From Gammaproteobacteria bacterium (GTDB taxonomy: Bacteria > Pseudomonadota > Gammaproteobacteria > JAKDMP01): a stretch of 37,940 nt of DNA. A program made the position numbers and the translations under genes. Below the pieces are notes generated by a model, which did not search any database, was not told the origin of the DNA, and was given only the letters and a program-made list of their open reading frames with translations. The stretch is taken from assembly GCA_027018875.1 (NCBI GenBank), contig JALUYA010000046.1, forward strand, positions 1 through 37,940. Direction: 5' to 3'. Below are positions 3,243 to 37,940 of the stretch, piece by piece; position 1 is the first letter of the stretch; every line of letters starts with the position of its first letter.

Positions 3243-3271
3243 TTGACCCGCTAAAAAGTTGGGGCTAAGCT
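3243..3271 (+). promoter_or_regulatory. Candidate promoter of the YHS protein gene
   Basis: TTGACC (3243-3248) is a five-of-six -35 match. It is followed after 17 bases by TAAGCT (3266-3271), a weak -10. The spacer carries a loose CCC...GGG dyad around an A run, which could be an operator. The rest of the gap from 3027 shows no gene. Confidence 0.35.
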
Positions 3272-3312
3272 GGAGCAACTCCTGAAATACCCATGAAAGG
3301 AGGTGAAACAAA

Positions 3313-3489
3313 ATGACGGAACAAGTCAAAGATCTCGTCTGTGGGATGACCCTGAATAAAGACCGGGCGGCGGCAACGGGCGAATACCAAGGCCACGCCT
3401 ACTATTTCTGCTCCCCAGGCTGCAAGGCCGAGTTCGAGAAGGCTCCGAAGAAGTACGCAGAAGCCACCGGTCAAACCCATCGGCATTGA
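3313..3489 (+). CDS. Small YHS-domain protein (58 aa)
   Basis: The product starts MTEQVKDLVCGMTLNKDRAA and contains YYFCSPGCKAEFE. This is the YHS domain: a D-x-V-C-G-M entry followed by a Y-F-C-S-x-x-C-K knuckle. YHS domains occur at the ends of copper-transporting P-type ATPases and as small stand-alone proteins, and are thought to bind metal through the conserved cysteines (Cys10, Cys33, Cys37 here). It has a near-perfect Shine-Dalgarno sequence, AAAGGAGGTG, at 3296-3305, so strong translation is expected. There is no signal peptide. It lies upstream of the secreted propeller-rhodanese gene on the same strand, with about 155 bases between them. The metal is not known; copper is an inference from the family. 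Confidence 0.85.
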   Translation: MTEQVKDLVCGMTLNKDRAAATGEYQGHAYYFCSPGCKAEFEKAPKKYAEATGQTHRH

Positions 3490-3577
3490 TAAGCTGACCA
3501 CCTTGCCGCCGCCGCGTCAAGGGGTAGGATCAGGGCGTCTCCAATCTTGCGCTTCTCTTCATTCGCCCGGTTATCTA

Positions 3578-3593
3578 GAAAGGAGATGAAACA
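3578..3593 (+). repeat. Second copy of the YHS leader/ribosome-binding motif
   Basis: GAAAGGAGATGAAACA differs by one base from GAAAGGAGGTGAAACA at 3295-3310, where it serves as the ribosome-binding region of the YHS gene. Here no suitable start codon follows at the right distance: the overlapping ATG at 3586 leaves no spacer. It could be the scar of a deleted duplicate gene or a regulatory site shared by the two transcripts. Confidence 0.5.
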
Positions 3594-3644
3594 GGGCTAC
3601 CCCGGTCCCTTCACTACCCAGGCACTTAGAAACGAGGAACCAAC

Positions 3645-4997
3645 ATGAATGTTAAACCGATTATCGCCGCTGTGCTCGCATTACCGCTTGGATTTCTGCC
3701 CTTCTCAGCCGCCCCGGCGGCCCCGGGACCTCAGCCCATGCTGGCCGTTGCCCTGGGAGGAGGCGGCCAGATTGCGCTGGTCAATACCGCCTCCGGCAAG
3801 TTGGTTAGGATCGACGTTGGTTCGGTGATTCACGGCGTGGGGGTGCTGCCCGATGGACGCACGGCCTACGCCGCCAGCCGCAACTCCGATGAAGTCTCGG
3901 TAATCGATCTCTCCCGGCGGAAGGTGATCAAGCGGATCGATGTCGGCGGCCGATCACACCATATCGCGGTAAGCCCCGACGGTCGCTGGGTCTACGTCAC
4001 CGTTGATGGCAACAATACCGTCGCCGTTATCGACGCCGGTACCGCCGCGTTGGCAACTTCTATTCCGGTGGGGGCTGGACCCACCTACACGGTTTTTTCT
4101 CCCGACGGTAGCCGGGCCTACGTGTCGAGCAAGAAAGCAGGAACCATCTCCGTGATCGATATGGCCCGGATGAAGGTCATCAAGAAGATCACGGCGGGTA
4201 AACAACCGGATCACCTGGCCCTCACCCCCGACGGGAACATCCTCTATGTGACCAATTATGGCTCCAACAATGTGAGTGCAATCGACACCCGCAGCGACCG
4301 GGTAATGGCCACCATCCCGGTGGGCAAAGGGCCGCATGGGATCGCCGTAGTCGAGCGTCGGGGACGGCTTCTGGTCGCCGTGGGCAACCTGGCAGAGACC
4401 TCGCTCTCGCTGATCGATGTGGCCACAAATCGCGTGGTTCAAACGATCGCTCTGGGCACCGCCCCGATGCACCTGACGGCCTCACCCGATCGCAACACGC
4501 TCTATATAGGCAGCATCCCCGCCAGGCAACTCCTGGTCTATGACGTCGCGCGCGGCCGGGTGATCAAGCGGATCAACCTGGGAGGAAAGGTTCAGATCCA
4601 CCAGATCGCTGTGATTAAAAAGCCAATAATGGGCGGTTCCAAGACCATCCAATCCCACGGCGGCAGCTATCACAATATCGACGCGAGGCAGCTGCGGGTC
4701 ATGATGCAGGACAAAGCCTTCCTGCTGATCAATGTTCATATCCCCTATCAGGGCGAGCTGCCGCGGACGGACCGGTTCATCCCCTTCAATAAGATCGAGC
4801 AAAATCTCGATCAACTGCCTAAAGACAAGTCAGCCAAGATCGTAGTCTACTGCCGCAGTGGAAGGATGAGCGCCATCGCCGCAAAAACCTTGGTGAAACT
4901 TGGCTACACCAACGTCTGGAACCTCAAACGAGGGATGCGCGGGTGGCAACAGGCAGGCTACCCTCTCTTAAAAAAGACCCATGGTTCTTCGGGGTGA
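3645..4997 (+). CDS. Secreted YVTN beta-propeller / rhodanese fusion protein
   Basis: A 450-residue protein with an N-terminal signal peptide (hydrophobic core about residues 7-22, Ala-rich end near 27), so a periplasmic location is expected. Residues about 30-320 form YVTN/40-residue propeller repeats, with recurring blocks such as GRTAYAASRNSDEVSVIDLS, GRWVYVTVDGNNTVAVIDAG and GNILYVTNYGSNNVSAIDTR. Residues about 340-445 are a rhodanese domain with active-site loop CRSGRMS and Cys403, followed by NLKRGMRGWQQAGYPL, a typical rhodanese end. Rhodaneses carry sulfane sulfur on that cysteine. The substrate here is unknown. The ribosome-binding site is GAGGA just before the ATG. The fusion of these two modules is uncommon as far as I know, and it follows a YHS metal-binding gene. 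Confidence 0.88.
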   Translation: MNVKPIIAAVLALPLGFLPFSAAPAAPGPQPMLAVALGGGGQIALVNTASGKLVRIDVGSVIHGVGVLPDGRTAYAASRNSDEVSVIDLSRRKVIKRIDVGGRSHHIAVSPDGRWVYVTVDGNNTVAVIDAGTAALATSIPVGAGPTYTVFSPDGSRAYVSSKKAGTISVIDMARMKVIKKITAGKQPDHLALTPDGNILYVTNYGSNNVSAIDTRSDRVMATIPVGKGPHGIAVVERRGRLLVAVGNLAETSLSLIDVATNRVVQTIALGTAPMHLTASPDRNTLYIGSIPARQLLVYDVARGRVIKRINLGGKVQIHQIAVIKKPIMGGSKTIQSHGGSYHNIDARQLRVMMQDKAFLLINVHIPYQGELPRTDRFIPFNKIEQNLDQLPKDKSAKIVVYCRSGRMSAIAAKTLVKLGYTNVWNLKRGMRGWQQAGYPLLKKTHGSSG

Positions 4998-5280
4998 GTG
5001 GGGGATGGCGACCTGGTGCATAGAACGAGCTGTTCGGCGAATGTTATCGCCCGAGCGGGCCGAGTAGTTCGTGCTCGAGGGTTTGACGCCATCTGGCTTC
5101 CCCGAGGCATAACGCAGAAGCCGGGGAAATTCCTCTTTTGGCTTACGGCACTTGTGAGAGAAAGCACGCCCTTAACTGCGGACCTGAACCGCAAAGATGA
5201 CCCCGTTCGAGTAGACGGCCAGACCGTCGGCGCATAGGCGAACCGCCGGACAAACCACCCCCCGGGCCGGCATCGGGCAC

Positions 5281-6528: not shown

Positions 6529-6832
6529 CGCGGACAATCCTATCAGCGTGCCAGCTTCCATTCCCCGGGGATCCCCCCTTAAAGGCCGGAGTCCGCGTTG
6601 CCTAATGCCCCACGCGCGCATCATGACCGGGATTGGTTCGCTCGAGCGGCGGCGGGCAAGGCGACTCCATCGCCTCGATCCCGGTGGCAATGGCGGCACC
6701 AACACCGCGCTGACGCCCAATTCCCGCAAGCGTTGCGAACCTGACGAAATAAAAAGAAGCGCCCTCCACAGCCGAAGAAATCTTTCTGATGGGGTGCTAT
6801 TCTTTAAAAATATGGTTTTTGCAGGGGCCTCG
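6529..6832. other. Divergent intergenic region between the MFS and BNR genes
   Basis: About 300 bases without a convincing gene. Both the MFS frame (minus) and the BNR frame (plus) stay open through it, but the translations are Arg/Pro/Gly-rich and unlike either protein. It should hold both promoters. An AT-rich patch near 6787-6820 is the best place for the BNR promoter, but I see no clear -35/-10 pair. Confidence 0.5.
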
Positions 6833-9800
6833 ATGATAACTCGAGTTCGCAATCTGGTTGTTGCCTTCGTTGTTCTCATGGCAGGTGCTTTAGTGCTACC
6901 TGCGGTTTCCACCCAGGCCACCGGGATCGCATCGCCCTGGCGGGGAGCGTTATCCTGGCGCCTTCTCGGCCCGTTACGTGGTGGCTGGGCCACGATGGCG
7001 ATGGGCGTTCCCAGCGAGCCGAACACGTTTTATTTCGGCAGTGCCGACGGCGGGGTGTGGAAAACAACCGATGCCGGGCGGACCTGGCACCCCTTGATGC
7101 AGCACCAACAGGCGGCGGCGATCGGCGCCCTGGCCGTGGCCCCCTCGAACCCGAACATTCTCTACGCCGGCACCGGACAGGTGGCGGCGCGTTACGATAT
7201 CGTCGCCGGAGATGGAGTCTATCGTTCCTCTAATGCGGGTCATACCTGGAGCCACATCGGGCTAGGCAAGACCCGCCATATCGGTCGCATCCTCATCGAT
7301 CCACACGACCCCGAGCGGGTTCTCGTCGCCGCCCTCGGTAATATCTTCGCTCCGAGCAATGCGCGTGGCGTCTACCTGACCACCGACGGGGGGAAACATT
7401 GGCAGCGGACACTATTCGTCAACCGCAATACGGGGGCGGTGGACCTTGCCTGGGATCCGACCCGACCCAGCGTGGTTTATGCCGCCACCTGGCAGATGCG
7501 TATGCATCCCTGGCTGGATTACTTCCAGCCCCAGGCGGGGCCCGGCTCGGGCATCTGGAAAAGCATCGATGCGGGCCGGCACTGGCGGCGCCTGCAGGGC
7601 CATGGACTACCCGCCGGAATCCTGGGAAGAATCGGGCTTGCGGTAGCCCGGGGCAGCGCCGGGAAAATTATTTACGCCACCATCGCCGTCGCCAGATCTC
7701 CTGCCGGAGATGGCATATCCAGCGGCGGCGGATCCGGCCTGTATCGCTCGATCGACGGCGGGGCAAGCTGGAAATTGGTGAACATAACCCCCGGCCTGGC
7801 AAGCAGTTACTTCGGTCGCCTGAGCGTGGCGCCGAACCACCCCGGCACCGTGTTCGTCATGGGTCGATCCATTCGGGAATCCACCGATGCCGGTCGACAT
7901 TTCCGGATCGTGAAGGGAGCGCCGGGTGGTGACGACTACCACTTCCTGTGGCTCAACCCAAGAGCGCCCGGGCACTGGATCGCCGCCGCGGACCAGGGCA
8001 GTACGGTGACGGTCAATGGCGGTAAAAGCTGGTCGAGCTGGTACAACCAGCCGACGGGGCAGTTCTACCATATCGCGACGGACCATCGTTTTCCCTACTG
8101 GATCTACGGGGGGCAGCAAGATTCGGGTACGGTCGCAATCGCCAGCCGGGGACCGAACGGCATCATCGGCCGGCGCGAGTGGCACCCGGTCGGCGGCGCC
8201 GAACGTGACTACGACGTGCCCGAACCGGGTCACCCCAACCTGGTCTTCGGCAGCGGGCTCGGCGGTTATGTCTCGCGCTATAACCAGGCCACGCACCAGG
8301 TGGTCGATATTGCCCCCTGGCCAGTTTCCAGCTATGGCGCCAACCCGCGCGGGGTCAAGTACCGATATACCTGGATCACGCCGCTCGGCTTCGGCTCCGG
8401 CAAGGCTCATCCGCTGTATTTCGCCTCCCAGGTGCTGTTCCGTTCCCTCGACGGCGGGATGAAATGGCAGGTGATCAGCCCCGATCTCACGGGCAAGAAA
8501 CCCGCTGCGAGCGGATGTTCTAATCCGGACCTCCCCGCGGCGAAACTCTGCGGTTTCGGCGTTATCTACACCATTGCCCCCTCCCCTTCGAACCCGGAAA
8601 CAATCTGGATCGGCACCGACGACGGCCTCGTGCAGATCACCACCGACGGGGGCACACACTGGCACGACATCACACCGAGGTCGCTGCCCCTCTGGGGCCG
8701 GGTTGACGCCATCGCCCTGCCCCGCTCCGTCCCCGGAACCGCCTATGTCGCCGTAGATGTTCATCGGCTGGGAGCCTCCTACCCACTGATCTACAAGACC
8801 ACGGATCGGGGGCGGCACTGGCGCAAGATCGTCCGCGGGCTACCCGGCGACGAATACGTTCTAAGCATCGCCACCGACACGAGGGACCCTCGGCTCGTCT
8901 TCGCCGGCACCAACCGCAGCGTGTATGTCTCGTTCAGCGGCGGAGCGCGCTGGCGCCCGCTGGGCTTGAACCTGCCGACGGTTTCGGTGCGTGACCTGCT
9001 GGTTCACGGCAATGACCTGGTCGCCGCCACCCAGGGGCGCGGCATCTGGTCCCTCGACGACATCGAACCATTGCGCGAAGCGAACGCAATGGCACCCCCC
9101 ACCCGGCTGCACCTGTTCCACCCGGTCGCGGCCTGGCGCCTACGGGCGAGCTTAAACCAGGACACCCCGCCGCCGCCTTCGAGCCCGGCGGGCGAGAACC
9201 CCCCCACCGGGGCCGTCATCGACTACGCCCTGGGGGCCAACATCAAGGGAGCGGTAACTCTCACCATCCGCGACTCGCACGGGAAGATTGTGCGGCGCTT
9301 CTCCTCCGTATCCCCACCGCCCCAACTGCCGGTATCGCGCTACTTTCAGAAGGGATGGCTGGGGCAAGCGCAACGCCTGTCCAGCTCCAAGGGATTGCAT
9401 CGATTCGTCTGGGACCTGCGTTACCCCCGCCCCGCGGCGATCGAGTATCACTATTCCATCGCGGCAATCTGGAAGCGGGATACCCCGGTCCTGCCGCAAG
9501 GCCCTCTGGTGCTGCCCGGCCATTACACGGTGAGCCTGAGCGCCGGCGGACGGAGCCAAACCGTTGAGTTGAGCGTGAAAATGGACCCGCGCGTGCACGT
9601 TTCCCTTGCCGCGTTGCGGGCACAACTCGATCTTGAACGCAAACTCGGTATCAGCCTGGCCCGGGCCGTCGCCGCTTACCACCAGGCCGGGGTCGAACTT
9701 GCCCGGCTGCAACGCGAAGGCGCTCCGGCCCGCCGGATCGAGGCGCTTCGCACCTGGCGCCAAACCGGTTCCGACTCGCTGGCCGCGGTCGCCGGCGTAC

Positions 9801-9961
9801 TCGCCGCCCTGGAAACCCGGGTGGAGCAAGCCGATGCCGCGCCCACCGCGGGCCAAATGGCGGTTTACCGGGACTACCGGAGCCGGCTGGCACGCCTGCT
9901 GGCACGCCGGCGGATGCCCGGCAACGCCGAGATCAAGCACGGCTCCGGCGACCCGGGGTGA
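6833..9961 (+). CDS. Secreted BNR/Asp-box repeat protein (sortilin/Ycf48-like propeller)
   Basis: A 1042-residue protein with a signal peptide (hydrophobic core about residues 8-24, then VSTQATG). At least ten Asp-box repeats of the form S/T-x-D-x-G-x-x-W are visible, including TTDAGRTWH, TTDGGKHWQ, SIDAGRHWR, SIDGGASWK, STDAGRHFR, SLDGGMKWQ, TTDGGTHWH and TTDRGRHWR. They run from about residue 70 to 720 and imply one or two beta-propellers. The last 300 residues hold a beta-rich segment and then an Arg/Ala-rich helical tail. Relatives are annotated as glycosyl hydrolase-like or sortilin-like proteins, mostly without proven activity. I therefore infer a secreted or cell-surface binding protein and not an enzyme. 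The ATG at 6833 has AGGGG upstream and gives a proper signal peptide. An earlier in-frame ATG at 6812 lacks a ribosome-binding site. Confidence 0.85.
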   Translation: MITRVRNLVVAFVVLMAGALVLPAVSTQATGIASPWRGALSWRLLGPLRGGWATMAMGVPSEPNTFYFGSADGGVWKTTDAGRTWHPLMQHQQAAAIGALAVAPSNPNILYAGTGQVAARYDIVAGDGVYRSSNAGHTWSHIGLGKTRHIGRILIDPHDPERVLVAALGNIFAPSNARGVYLTTDGGKHWQRTLFVNRNTGAVDLAWDPTRPSVVYAATWQMRMHPWLDYFQPQAGPGSGIWKSIDAGRHWRRLQGHGLPAGILGRIGLAVARGSAGKIIYATIAVARSPAGDGISSGGGSGLYRSIDGGASWKLVNITPGLASSYFGRLSVAPNHPGTVFVMGRSIRESTDAGRHFRIVKGAPGGDDYHFLWLNPRAPGHWIAAADQGSTVTVNGGKSWSSWYNQPTGQFYHIATDHRFPYWIYGGQQDSGTVAIASRGPNGIIGRREWHPVGGAERDYDVPEPGHPNLVFGSGLGGYVSRYNQATHQVVDIAPWPVSSYGANPRGVKYRYTWITPLGFGSGKAHPLYFASQVLFRSLDGGMKWQVISPDLTGKKPAASGCSNPDLPAAKLCGFGVIYTIAPSPSNPETIWIGTDDGLVQITTDGGTHWHDITPRSLPLWGRVDAIALPRSVPGTAYVAVDVHRLGASYPLIYKTTDRGRHWRKIVRGLPGDEYVLSIATDTRDPRLVFAGTNRSVYVSFSGGARWRPLGLNLPTVSVRDLLVHGNDLVAATQGRGIWSLDDIEPLREANAMAPPTRLHLFHPVAAWRLRASLNQDTPPPPSSPAGENPPTGAVIDYALGANIKGAVTLTIRDSHGKIVRRFSSVSPPPQLPVSRYFQKGWLGQAQRLSSSKGLHRFVWDLRYPRPAAIEYHYSIAAIWKRDTPVLPQGPLVLPGHYTVSLSAGGRSQTVELSVKMDPRVHVSLAALRAQLDLERKLGISLARAVAAYHQAGVELARLQREGAPARRIEALRTWRQTGSDSLAAVAGVLAALETRVEQADAAPTAGQMAVYRDYRSRLARLLARRRMPGNAEIKHGSGDPG

Positions 9962-10322: not shown

Positions 10323-10748
10323 ATGTACGATTATCAGTCAAAAACCCCCATGAAACTTAGGGACTTTGTCGCTACCGCCCAGGCGAATATTCGCGAAATT
10401 GAACCCGTGGAAGCGAACAAACTACGCACAAGCAATCCCGATCTGGTGATTATCGATGTCCGTGAACCCTTCGAGTATCAGCAAACCGGCCATATTCCGG
10501 GGGCGCGGCTCATCCCGCGGGGTATTCTCGAGGCCGCGGCCGACCCCTCCCACCCGATGCATACACCCGAACTTACCGCCGCCCGCGAACGCCCCATCCT
10601 GGTCTATTGTTCCAGCGGCGGGCGCAGTGCCATGGCCTGCGCAGTACTGCAACTGATGGGCTTCACCCGGGTCATGAATCTTCGCGGCGGCTTCATACGC
10701 TGGTGTGCGGAAAATCTGCCGCTACGCCAAGAGGCCCGCTACGAGTAA
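10323..10748 (+). CDS. Rhodanese-like sulfurtransferase (cytoplasmic, single domain)
   Basis: A 141-residue protein without a signal peptide. It has the rhodanese signature [20 protein letters not shown], the active-site loop CSSGGRS with Cys96, and the terminal [16 protein letters not shown]. Single-domain rhodaneses pass sulfane sulfur to acceptors such as thioredoxin, cyanide or sulfur-relay proteins. The acceptor here is unknown. The start at 10323 is uncertain because no ribosome-binding site is visible. The internal ATG at 10350 ([10 protein letters not shown]) is an alternative. The 3' end overlaps the convergent wrbA gene by ten bases. It is the second rhodanese in the window, the other being periplasmic. 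Confidence 0.9.
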
Positions 10749-35550: not shown

Positions 35551-36858
35551 ATGCTCGCCATCGCGATTTTTGTCGTTACCCTGATACTCGTCATCTGGCA
35601 ACCCCGGGGCCTGGGCATCGGCTGGAGTGCGTTGGGCGGTGCCGCGATCGCGCTCGCCACCGGCGTGATCACCTTAAACGACATTCCCATCGTGTGGCAC
35701 ATCGTCTGGAATGCCACCTTTACCTTCGTAGCATTGATCATCATCTCGTTACTACTCGATGAAGCGGGCTTCTTTCACTGGGCCGCGCTGCACGTGGCCC
35801 AGTGGGGCGGCGGCAACGGAAGGCGGCTGTTTCTGCTGATCATCCTGCTCGGCGCCATGATTGCCGCCCTGTTCGCCAATGACGGCGCGGCGCTGCTGCT
35901 CACCCCCATCGTACTTGCGATCCTGCTGCGCCTCGGCTTCAAACCGGGGGCGGCCTTCGCCTTTGCCATCGGCACCGGCTTCGTCGCCGACACCACCAGC
36001 CTGCCACTGATAATCTCCAACCTGGTCAATATCGTCAGCGCCAACTACTTCGGCATTCTGTTCGATCGTTACGCGCGGGTCATGGTGCCCGTGGATCTGG
36101 CCGCTCTCGCCGCCACGCTCACCGTACTCTGGCTCTACTTCCGCCGCAGCATCCCTCGTGAATACCCCCTTGGCGGACTGGAAACCCCGGCCGCGGTAAT
36201 CCGCGATCGGCTCGTCTTCCGCGCCAGTTTCCCGCTGCTTGCCCTGTTGCTCGGCGCCTACTTCCTCACCGCGCCCTTCAACATTCCCGTCTCCTTCGTT
36301 ACCGGCGCCGGGGCCCTGGTGCTACTCGGCATCGCCGGGCGCTGGCATCACGCCGGGCGGGGCCGAGTGATCCCCGTGCGCAAGGTCCTGCGGGATGCCC
36401 CCTGGCAAATCGTGCTGTTCAGCCTCGGCATGTACCTGGTGGTGTACGGCCTGAGCAATGCGGGGCTCACCGCCTACGTCTCGCGCGCGTTCGAATGGCT
36501 GGGGGGGCACGGCCCGGTCACCGCGGCGCTCGGCACCGGCTTCATTGCCGCGGGGCTGGCATCGATCATGAACAACATGCCGAGTGTACTGGTCGGCGCG
36601 CTGTCTATCCACCAGGCCCATGGCCTCGGCGCCGGCGTCCGCGAGGCCATGATCTACGCTAATATTATCGGCAATGATCTCGGCCCTAAACTCACCCCCA
36701 TCGGCAGCCTCGCCACCCTGTTGTGGTTGCATGTGCTGGCCCGCAAAGGTCAGACGATCGGCTGGGGAGAATACATGAAAGTGGGGCTGATTCTCACCCC
36801 GCCCGTATTGTTCATCACCCTGCTCGCCCTGGCCGCCTGGCTGCCCCTCGTTCACTGA
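35551..36858 (+). CDS. arsB: Arsenite efflux transporter ArsB
   Basis: A 435-residue inner-membrane protein with about 11-12 hydrophobic segments of the ArsB/NhaD ion transporter group. [40 protein letters not shown] and [20 protein letters not shown] followed by [20 protein letters not shown] are hallmark ArsB motifs. It expels arsenite and antimonite. No arsC reductase or arsA ATPase is next to it, so it should run on the proton gradient. The ATG at 35551 has no visible Shine-Dalgarno sequence, and the leader would be short. Confidence 0.95.
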
Positions 36859-37041: not shown

Positions 37042-37940
37042 CTATTGATCCAGCGGGCTACGCACACCGCGCCCGCCACGATTGAGCACATGCGTATAGA
37101 TCATGGTCGTCTCGACATGCTTGTGCCCCAGCAATTCCTGCACCGTGCGAATGTCATAACCGGATTCGAGTAGATGCGTTGCAAAGGAATGCCGCAGCAC
37201 ATGTGGCGAAACGGGCTTGCAAAGCCCCGCCCGCCGCGCCGCGCCCCGTACCGCGCGCTGAACCCGCTGCTCGTTCAGGTGATGCCGCCCTATGGCCCCC
37301 GAGCGGGGGTCGGTCGAAAAACGCGCCGCCGCAAACACATATTGCCAGGCCCATTCGGTCGCCGCGCGTGGATACTTGCGCGCCAAGGCATGCGGCAGCC
37401 ACACGGCGGCACGACCCTGCAGCCGGTCACGCTCATAGACCGAACGCCTGACCGTCAAATGCGCCCGCAAGGGCTCCACCAGGGTTTGCGGCAACACCGT
37501 GACCCGATCCTTCGCGCCCTTGCCGTCGCGCACCAGTATCTCGCCGCGTGACAAATCGAGATCCTTCACCCTGAGCCGCACCCCCTCCATCAAGCGCATA
37601 CCGGTGCCATACAGCAACCGGGCAATCAAGCCCGGCAGGTCGGCCGGTAATTCATACAGTAACCGCTGCACTTCGGAACGGGACAGAACGACCGGGCGCC
37701 GCTCGGGCTTCCTGGCCCGGGTAATCCCCTCCAGCCATGGCAAGTCCACACCGAGCACCTCGCGGTAAAGGAACAGAATGGCCGACAGCGCTAGGTTCTG
37801 GGTACTCGCGGCAACATTCCGGGCCACCGCCAAGTCACTCAAAAACGCCTCGATCTCGGCAGCACCCATCTCGCGCGGATGCCGTTTCTCATGAAACAGG
37901 ATAAAACGCTTGATCCAGTGCACATAGGACTGCTCCGTGC
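37042..37940 (-). CDS. intI: Integron integrase IntI (5' end cut by window edge)
   Basis: 299 visible residues of a tyrosine recombinase. The upstream codons at the edge read [20 protein letters not shown], matching the N-terminal domain of integron integrases. The catalytic residues are intact: Arg in [20 protein letters not shown], Lys in [13 protein letters not shown], His/Arg in [13 protein letters not shown], His in [13 protein letters not shown] and Tyr in [11 protein letters not shown]. The extra segment [18 protein letters not shown] with [20 protein letters not shown] is the IntI-specific insertion absent from XerC/D. IntI inserts and excises gene cassettes at attI by folding attC sites. 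attI normally lies upstream of intI, that is, to the right of this window. Confidence 0.93.

Follow-up and report, generated by a model that had tools for sequence, protein, structure and literature searches.

The CuZ centre of nitrous oxide reductase (NosZ) is a [4Cu:2S] cluster that has been described as unique to this enzyme (PMC11573801). In canonical NosZ, it is coordinated by seven His ligands; all blades but IV contribute, blade II supplies two adjacent His and the inner strand of the first blade is C-terminal (PMC11573801). NosDFY is so far no more than a predicted supplier of sulfide for CuZ (PMC6530538). Thiocyanate dehydrogenase (5F75 and others) is a seven-bladed propeller with a copper centre in a cavity (PMC6504805), and AztD is an extracytoplasmic metal-binding propeller that serves as a zinc metallochaperone (PMC6689063). 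A rhodanese-like protein and a propeller are associated in the PQQ-associated CXXCW pair (TIGR03865/TIGR03866), and YncE of E. coli has the YVTN seven-bladed fold.

Here we discuss two genes in a 37,940-nucleotide stretch of gammaproteobacterial DNA (the window), one for a small YHS protein and one for a propeller joined to a rhodanese. The fusion differs from each of the systems above. Thiocyanate dehydrogenase is a larger, TAT-exported enzyme and gives a weak local match (26 bits, PDB), whereas AztD has eight blades and other ligands (PMC6689063) and the fusion scores 28 bits vs. 400 with its model, NF038015. Both halves of the fusion match the CXXCW pair weakly, but below both cut-offs (183 vs. 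287 for TIGR03866). Relatives of the fusion are annotated as 'YncE family', however, the fusion reaches 106 bits with NF052280, which has a cut-off of 400. A Foldseek search of the PDB retrieved every propeller (more than 1,800 matches) and did not discriminate. No description of an arrangement of YHS with CsoR and copper, of rhodanese with copper resistance, or of CuZ with rhodanese was found in the open-licence literature. The reading that we favour, with somewhat better than even confidence and from sequence, is that of a trimmed, horizontally acquired copper-handling cassette. It likely carries a CuZ-like site; delivery of sulfur or Cu(I) by the rhodanese is less sure.

The YHS gene, the fusion gene and their leaders

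Both genes have orthologues, next to each other, in L006, a contig from metagenome run SRR4028170 that belongs to an uncultured bacterium. These orthologues and the substitution rates of the fusion against its counterpart (dN ~0.10, dS ~0.39) indicate that both genes are real. The YHS protein matches PF04945 over residues 5-51 (E=3.3e-17; 62.7 bits vs. a cut-off of 30.3). The Cys ligand positions of the domain are filled by C10, C33 and C37 and the tail is His-rich, and the protein is a predicted metal binder.

Table 1. Positions of the features in the window (fusion residues are numbered from its start)
Feature	Position	Strand	Basis or remark
Block common to L006, probably horizontally acquired	3258-5012	+	Nothing similar outside it
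Remnant of a CsoR-family (PF02583) gene, its final ~12 codons (KVGAKLEQLLKY-P-stop)	3255-3296	+	In frame with the C-terminal end of L006 csoR
YHS leader with ribosome-binding site (AAAGGAGGTGAAACA)	3296-3310	+	Sequence
YHS mini-protein gene	3313-3489	+	58 aa, Pfam PF04945
Leader motif, second copy (AAAGGAGATGAAACA)	3579-3593	+	Not in ribosome-binding-site position; missing in L006
Propeller-rhodanese fusion, predicted to be exported	3645-4997	+	450 aa
Putative export signal or membrane anchor, ~residues 1-30	3645-3734	+	Sequence reading; hydrophobic N-terminus in four fused proteins
Seven-bladed propeller, residues 32-324	3738-4616	+	AF2 model; Pfam YNCE
His63 codon, putative copper ligand	3831-3833	+	Invariant in 21 propellers
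His105-His106 codons, putative ligand pair	3957-3962	+	Invariant, 21-propeller alignment
Tyr148 codon, blade without His	4086-4088	+	Phe in one relative; Tyr in clade III NosZ
His190 codon	4212-4214	+	Invariant, 21-propeller alignment
His231 codon	4335-4337	+	Invariant, 21-propeller alignment
His276 codon	4470-4472	+	Invariant, 21-propeller alignment
His319 codon, closing strand	4599-4601	+	AF2 model; 21-propeller alignment
Rhodanese domain, residues 338-442	4656-4970	+	Pfam PF00581; copper-linked subfamily alignment
Active loop Cys403-R-S-G-R-Met408	4851-4868	+	Cys and Met invariant in 14 members

The fusion gene follows after a gap of 155 bp, and the N-terminus of its product resembles an export signal or membrane anchor. 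Pfam identifies a YncE-type propeller (E=1.3e-25) and a rhodanese (E=7.3e-12). The AF2 model, which was built on two sequences, has 28 strands arranged as seven four-stranded blades over residues 32-324 (pLDDT ~92), with the C-terminal strand 317-324 completing the first blade; the rhodanese part is of lower confidence. Cys403 is the only cysteine of the fusion. Two fused relatives from other genomes, G811 and G808, have Met-rich segments adjoining the propeller (MMMGMG and GMGMGMPMPM are examples from G811). Segments of this type are familiar in Cu(I) proteins.

The first-pass annotation had described a 58-residue YHS protein with a near-consensus ribosome-binding site, followed on the same strand by a propeller with an intact rhodanese and Cys403. 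The open reading frame, the Pfam match and a GGAGG located 9 nt 5' of the ATG agree with the first description, and Pfam, the reading frame and the AF2 model agree with the second. It had also proposed a combined periplasmic role. This fails for the YHS protein: it carries no export signal and is therefore probably cytoplasmic. A shared leader motif had been suggested as well. Two copies of AAAGGAGRTGAAACA do occur in the window, at 3296 and 3579, where 0.02 would be expected by chance, but the second is not kept in L006. It lies ~50 nt 5' of the fusion start, beyond the stretch conserved in L006, and so the motif does not qualify as a leader that the two genes share and conserve. The copy at 3579-3593 repeats the YHS leader exactly with no start codon at a workable spacing and is possibly a leftover of a duplication.

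Origin of the cassette

The fusion was searched for in a species-level scan (one genome per species) as well as in viral contigs and plasmids. Across these sets, a full-length relative was found in L006 alone (82% protein identity). Plasmid matches that covered both halves were rejected, being separate genes or weak. A search of 100 genomes from the phylum of L006 found two more fused homologues, those of G811 and G808, along with propeller-only and rhodanese-only relatives, and 369 genomes sampled from the class of the host contained no fusion. The fusion is thus rare, and the first-pass annotation, which a common fusion of known function would have refuted, withstands this check. The phylum of L006 may be Bipolaricaulota; it is not that of the host, since its set holds 100 genomes and the host belongs to a larger group. 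For another genome from run SRR4028170, the reported source is South Mid-Atlantic Ridge hydrothermal fluid (PMC10839748).

In L006, an MMPL transporter and a LolA-like protein come first, then a CsoR-family regulator (PF02583, 2e-22), YHS, the fusion, a methyltransferase and DUF302; the YHS gene overlaps the regulator gene. The third ligand position of this regulator (L006 5296-5595, + strand) is seemingly Tyr (SHMRHY) and not Cys, so its inducer may differ from the usual Cu(I).

The DNA of the window is 79% identical to L006 over 3258-3503 and 85% identical over 3627-5012, and the similarity ends sharply at 3258 and 5012. It begins inside the L006 csoR gene. The remains of this gene in the window were identified by tblastn (QVEAKMEELLEY vs. 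KVGAKLEQLLKY) and are flanked by stops on both sides. PF02583 has no match anywhere in the host genome, an intact CsoR-type regulator is absent from the window and no methyltransferase gene is present after the fusion. The sharp ends, together with fusions in the phylum of L006 and none in the sampled class of the host, argue for horizontal transfer. The simplest account is that a trimmed cassette was transferred across phyla and then came under purifying selection; the gene pair was probably acquired from a distant bacterium. The base composition of the cassette is not unusual for the window. In a check for misbinning or a chimeric assembly, host housekeeping genes were found on the right of the contig, and the genome is reported with 0% contamination.

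With csoR and the methyltransferase gone, the genes may be unregulated or unused in the host. The cassette could thus be a decaying remnant, as the csoR gene cut to ~12 codons in a genome with no PF02583 and the missing methyltransferase would suggest. However, the YHS and fusion frames are intact, dN is 0.10 vs. a dS of 0.39 against L006 and the YHS gene has a strong ribosome-binding site. We consider a remnant unlikely.

Several other features of the window were observed. A partial IS4-family transposase (123-455, − strand; NF033592, 44 bits vs. 115) lies upstream of a GGDEF/EAL-type gene, and that gene precedes the cassette. An integron integrase (37042-37923, − strand; TIGR02249, 440 bits vs. 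265) starts 17 bases from the contig end; its attI site and any cassettes fall outside the assembled sequence. A short distance from the integrase is an ArsB arsenite efflux pump (35551-36858, + strand; 649 bits).

The seven histidines and nitrous oxide reductase

The propeller was aligned with other copper-linked propellers from the phylum of L006 and from Pseudomonadota, 21 in all (four fused and seventeen unfused), with identity down to 28%. Twelve columns are invariant: H63, G64, H105, H106, P146, V160, H190, G227, H231, G232, H276 and H319. Seven of the twelve are His. Each of the seven starts the equivalent strand in its blade in the AF2 model, and the strand bearing the His lines the central channel in propellers of this fold. 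Control propellers from Rhodococcus, Streptomyces, Priestia, Azospirillum, a host paralogue and other class members retain 0-2 of the seven; the Azospirillum relative also has no copper neighbours. It is likely that the seven His form a CuZ-like multi-copper site.

Many proteins are YVTN propellers, with diverse functions, and the specific family models match the fusion only below threshold, as would be expected of an ordinary propeller joined to an ordinary rhodanese with no copper role and with His residues kept by accident of lineage. This explanation is disfavoured and very improbable, because the seven His and almost nothing else are strictly kept at 28-50% identity, the controls do not have them and copper neighbourhoods recur around the relatives vs. 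0 of 7 control loci.

Database names of the copper-linked propellers are generic ("YncE family protein", for instance). Cys is missing altogether from the six named unfused relatives. Unfused proteobacterial propellers (L071, L073-L076 and L106-L111) have an insertion with an (E/D)HxxHH-type motif (e.g. PEGVSQDEHEAHH); the fused proteins are without this His-rich insertion. The copper-island propellers of Paracoccus and Pseudomonas veronii were rejected as relatives since they are of a different type with 2 of the 7 His. This second type (L079 7248-8756 from Paracoccus yeei, annotated as DUF305, and L080 7968-9011 from P. veronii, annotated as 'cytochrome D1 domain') has its own conserved pattern, PHN, PAH, PHG and AHG.

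In NosZ numbering, the blades of the window protein present H319 (I), H63 (II), H105 and H106 (III), Tyr148 (IV), H190 (V), H231 (VI) and H276 (VII). Like canonical NosZ (TIGR04244/TIGR04246), the protein has seven His with one adjacent pair on six of seven blades, a silent blade IV and C-terminal closure. However, the pair of canonical NosZ is on blade II and that of the window protein is on the next blade, and the window protein lacks CuA and scores 24 bits vs. the TIGR04244 cut-off of 625. For clade III L-NosZ (NF052460), the order of blades is identical (H, HH, Tyr, H, H, H, H), and the seven-bladed propeller is likewise closed by an N- plus a C-terminal strand. Two true clade III NosZ proteins (>750 bits) show EPHN, DLHE, IHH, PDY, NPHG, GPLH and TGH. 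The fusion differs from these enzymes in having a rhodanese instead of the C-terminal CuA cupredoxin and in its copper-resistance context, and it scores 156 bits vs. the NF052460 cut-off of 700.

A profile alignment with clade III NosZ was confined to the propeller, since in a plain MAFFT alignment the full-length L-NosZ was displaced by one blade and its CuA segment was drawn in. The profile alignment has a probability of 99.4 (E=1.4e-20) and its top register matches the blade order. Repeat proteins can align one blade out of register, and here the next register, shifted by one blade, scores 106 vs. 112 for the top one. Because these scores are close, the blade-by-blade equivalence rests on the top register together with the shared N- and C-terminal closure. 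Pfam found only the propeller and the rhodanese in the fusion and no CuA cupredoxin domain. Without CuA, and with scores far under all NosZ cut-offs, the protein is not a nitrous oxide reductase, and that identity was rejected; the ligand architecture is shared.

Copper neighbourhoods, the rhodanese and possible roles

Copper genes recur around the relatives. In G811, genes for a methyltransferase and a His-rich P-type ATPase come after the fused gene, and that of G808 has a methyltransferase after it and a YHS domain upstream. Upstream of an unfused propeller in G804 are CsoR, a two-HMA copper-type ATPase and a cupredoxin. Propellers from the class of the host (~30% identity) are found in copper operons with multicopper oxidase, CopB and YHS-bearing ATPases. 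The order in Hoeflea (YHS, DUF5676, propeller, cytochrome c, copper ATPase) is a near-repeat of the window order. A YHS domain is located within ~5 kb at 9 of 15 copper-linked propeller loci, and copper markers including YHS are absent from all 7 control loci. The expectation that YHS neighbours recur is thus borne out, and so is the metal half of the sulfur/metal role first proposed, now narrowed to copper. The copper link of the cassette is strong.

The rhodanese has similar surroundings. In G169, its nearest stand-alone relative in the class of the host (55-57%) is preceded by a YHS-YHS-copper-type ATPase and a methyltransferase. Plasmid relatives (35-52%) from Deinococcus, Rubrobacter, Mycolicibacterium and Rhodococcus have as neighbours copper/heavy-metal ATPases, four-helix copper-binding proteins, a copper oxidase, CueP or CopC; a Pseudonocardia plasmid rhodanese has no such copper neighbours. 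The domain itself scores 46.1 bits vs. a PF00581 gathering cut-off of 22.2. Cys403 heads a CxxGxx(S/T)-type loop, CRSGRMS, with Met where Arg is usual. An ordinary rhodanese of the window (10323-10748) has the loop CSSGGRS, with Arg at the Met position. Fourteen aligned copper-linked rhodaneses share the signature (N/D)-x-H-x-P-x2-G-x4-T-(D/N) and the loop Y-C-x-x-G-x-M-S, in which Cys and Met are invariant. Lipoprotein-like N-termini in several actinobacterial members suggest that the subfamily is exported, and the fusion rhodanese belongs to this exported, copper-island-linked group. The Cys/Met pair could suit Cu(I), and a sulfur role is plausible.

Most likely, the seven His hold several copper ions in a CuZ-like site that acquires extracytoplasmic Cu(I), and the YHS protein binds metal inside the cell. 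Cys403 would hand sulfane sulfur or sulfide to the copper site or, alternatively, Cu(I) would be passed on via the Cys403/Met408 pair. Copper would then be kept as a copper-sulfur cluster. We hold the sulfur-donor step with minority confidence. Most seven-His propellers are unfused and copper-linked rhodaneses occur without a propeller, so neither strictly needs the other, and this weakens the case for sulfur donation. A broader proposal, that there is a CuA-less family of CuZ-type propellers for copper detoxification which here has its own sulfurtransferase and builds the copper-sulfide cluster in cis, is tentative and in our judgement rather doubtful. If true, CuZ chemistry would have a new biological use, and the protein would offer a self-contained model of sulfide delivery to such clusters.

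A rival reading, to which we give a little less than an even chance, is a periplasmic copper buffer or chaperone with 1-3 Cu on His and no copper-sulfide cluster, in which the Cys is a Cu(I) relay and not a sulfur donor. The copper-resistance context of the relatives would suit this role. The six Cys-free unfused relatives have no sulfur source of their own, AztD is a precedent for a propeller metallochaperone, albeit for zinc (PMC6689063), and the rhodanese loop has Met408 where Arg is usual. However, the ligand set matches that of an enzyme family with copper-sulfide and the rest of the rhodanese loop is intact.

A redox role has also been considered. Cytochrome c genes adjoin the propeller in Hoeflea and Roseibium and are close by in Roseovarius and Ruegeria; alphaproteobacterial copper-island loci with this arrangement are L106 (8956-10017), L108, L109 and L110. 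Such neighbours hint at a redox partner for the seven-His propeller, and a cupredoxin gene is near the propeller of L060. The propeller could then be a NosZ-like enzyme in which a cytochrome c or cupredoxin from outside replaces CuA, and it would reduce or oxidise a small substrate (N2O, Cu(I) itself or a sulfur compound). The NosZ-type ligands and the copper propeller thiocyanate dehydrogenases among the weak PDB matches are consistent with this, but CuA is missing, the neighbourhood is one of copper resistance and not respiration, and a standard TAT-type NosZ (999 bits) is already present in the host. We think an enzyme of this kind quite unlikely. The nos operon of the host (L100 1676-10936, host contig C48) also encodes a NosR-size protein, ABC genes and a NosL-like lipoprotein. 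With NosZ and a copper-type ATPase, the host handles extracytoplasmic copper clusters anyway.

Taken with the copper-handling cassette that we favour, the alignments suggest a family of seven-His, CuZ-patterned propellers in copper islands, one branch of which was fused to a sulfurtransferase and moved between phyla. If a similar site is bound, copper resistance would be a second, widespread home for CuZ-type chemistry, under 'YncE family protein' names. Seven-His propellers occur in tractable strains too, e.g. Ruegeria pomeroyi DSS-3, where SPO_RS21680 is an unfused relative, and the fused rhodanese opens the sulfur-donor question to a direct test with one protein and one cysteine mutant.

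Another propeller protein is encoded in the window at 6548-9961 (+ strand). It is a BNR/sortilin-type protein of 1137 aa with partial likeness to the F510_1955 glycosylhydrolase model, and in Pseudonocardia a gene named for F510_1955 glycosylhydrolase lies near the copper-type rhodanese.
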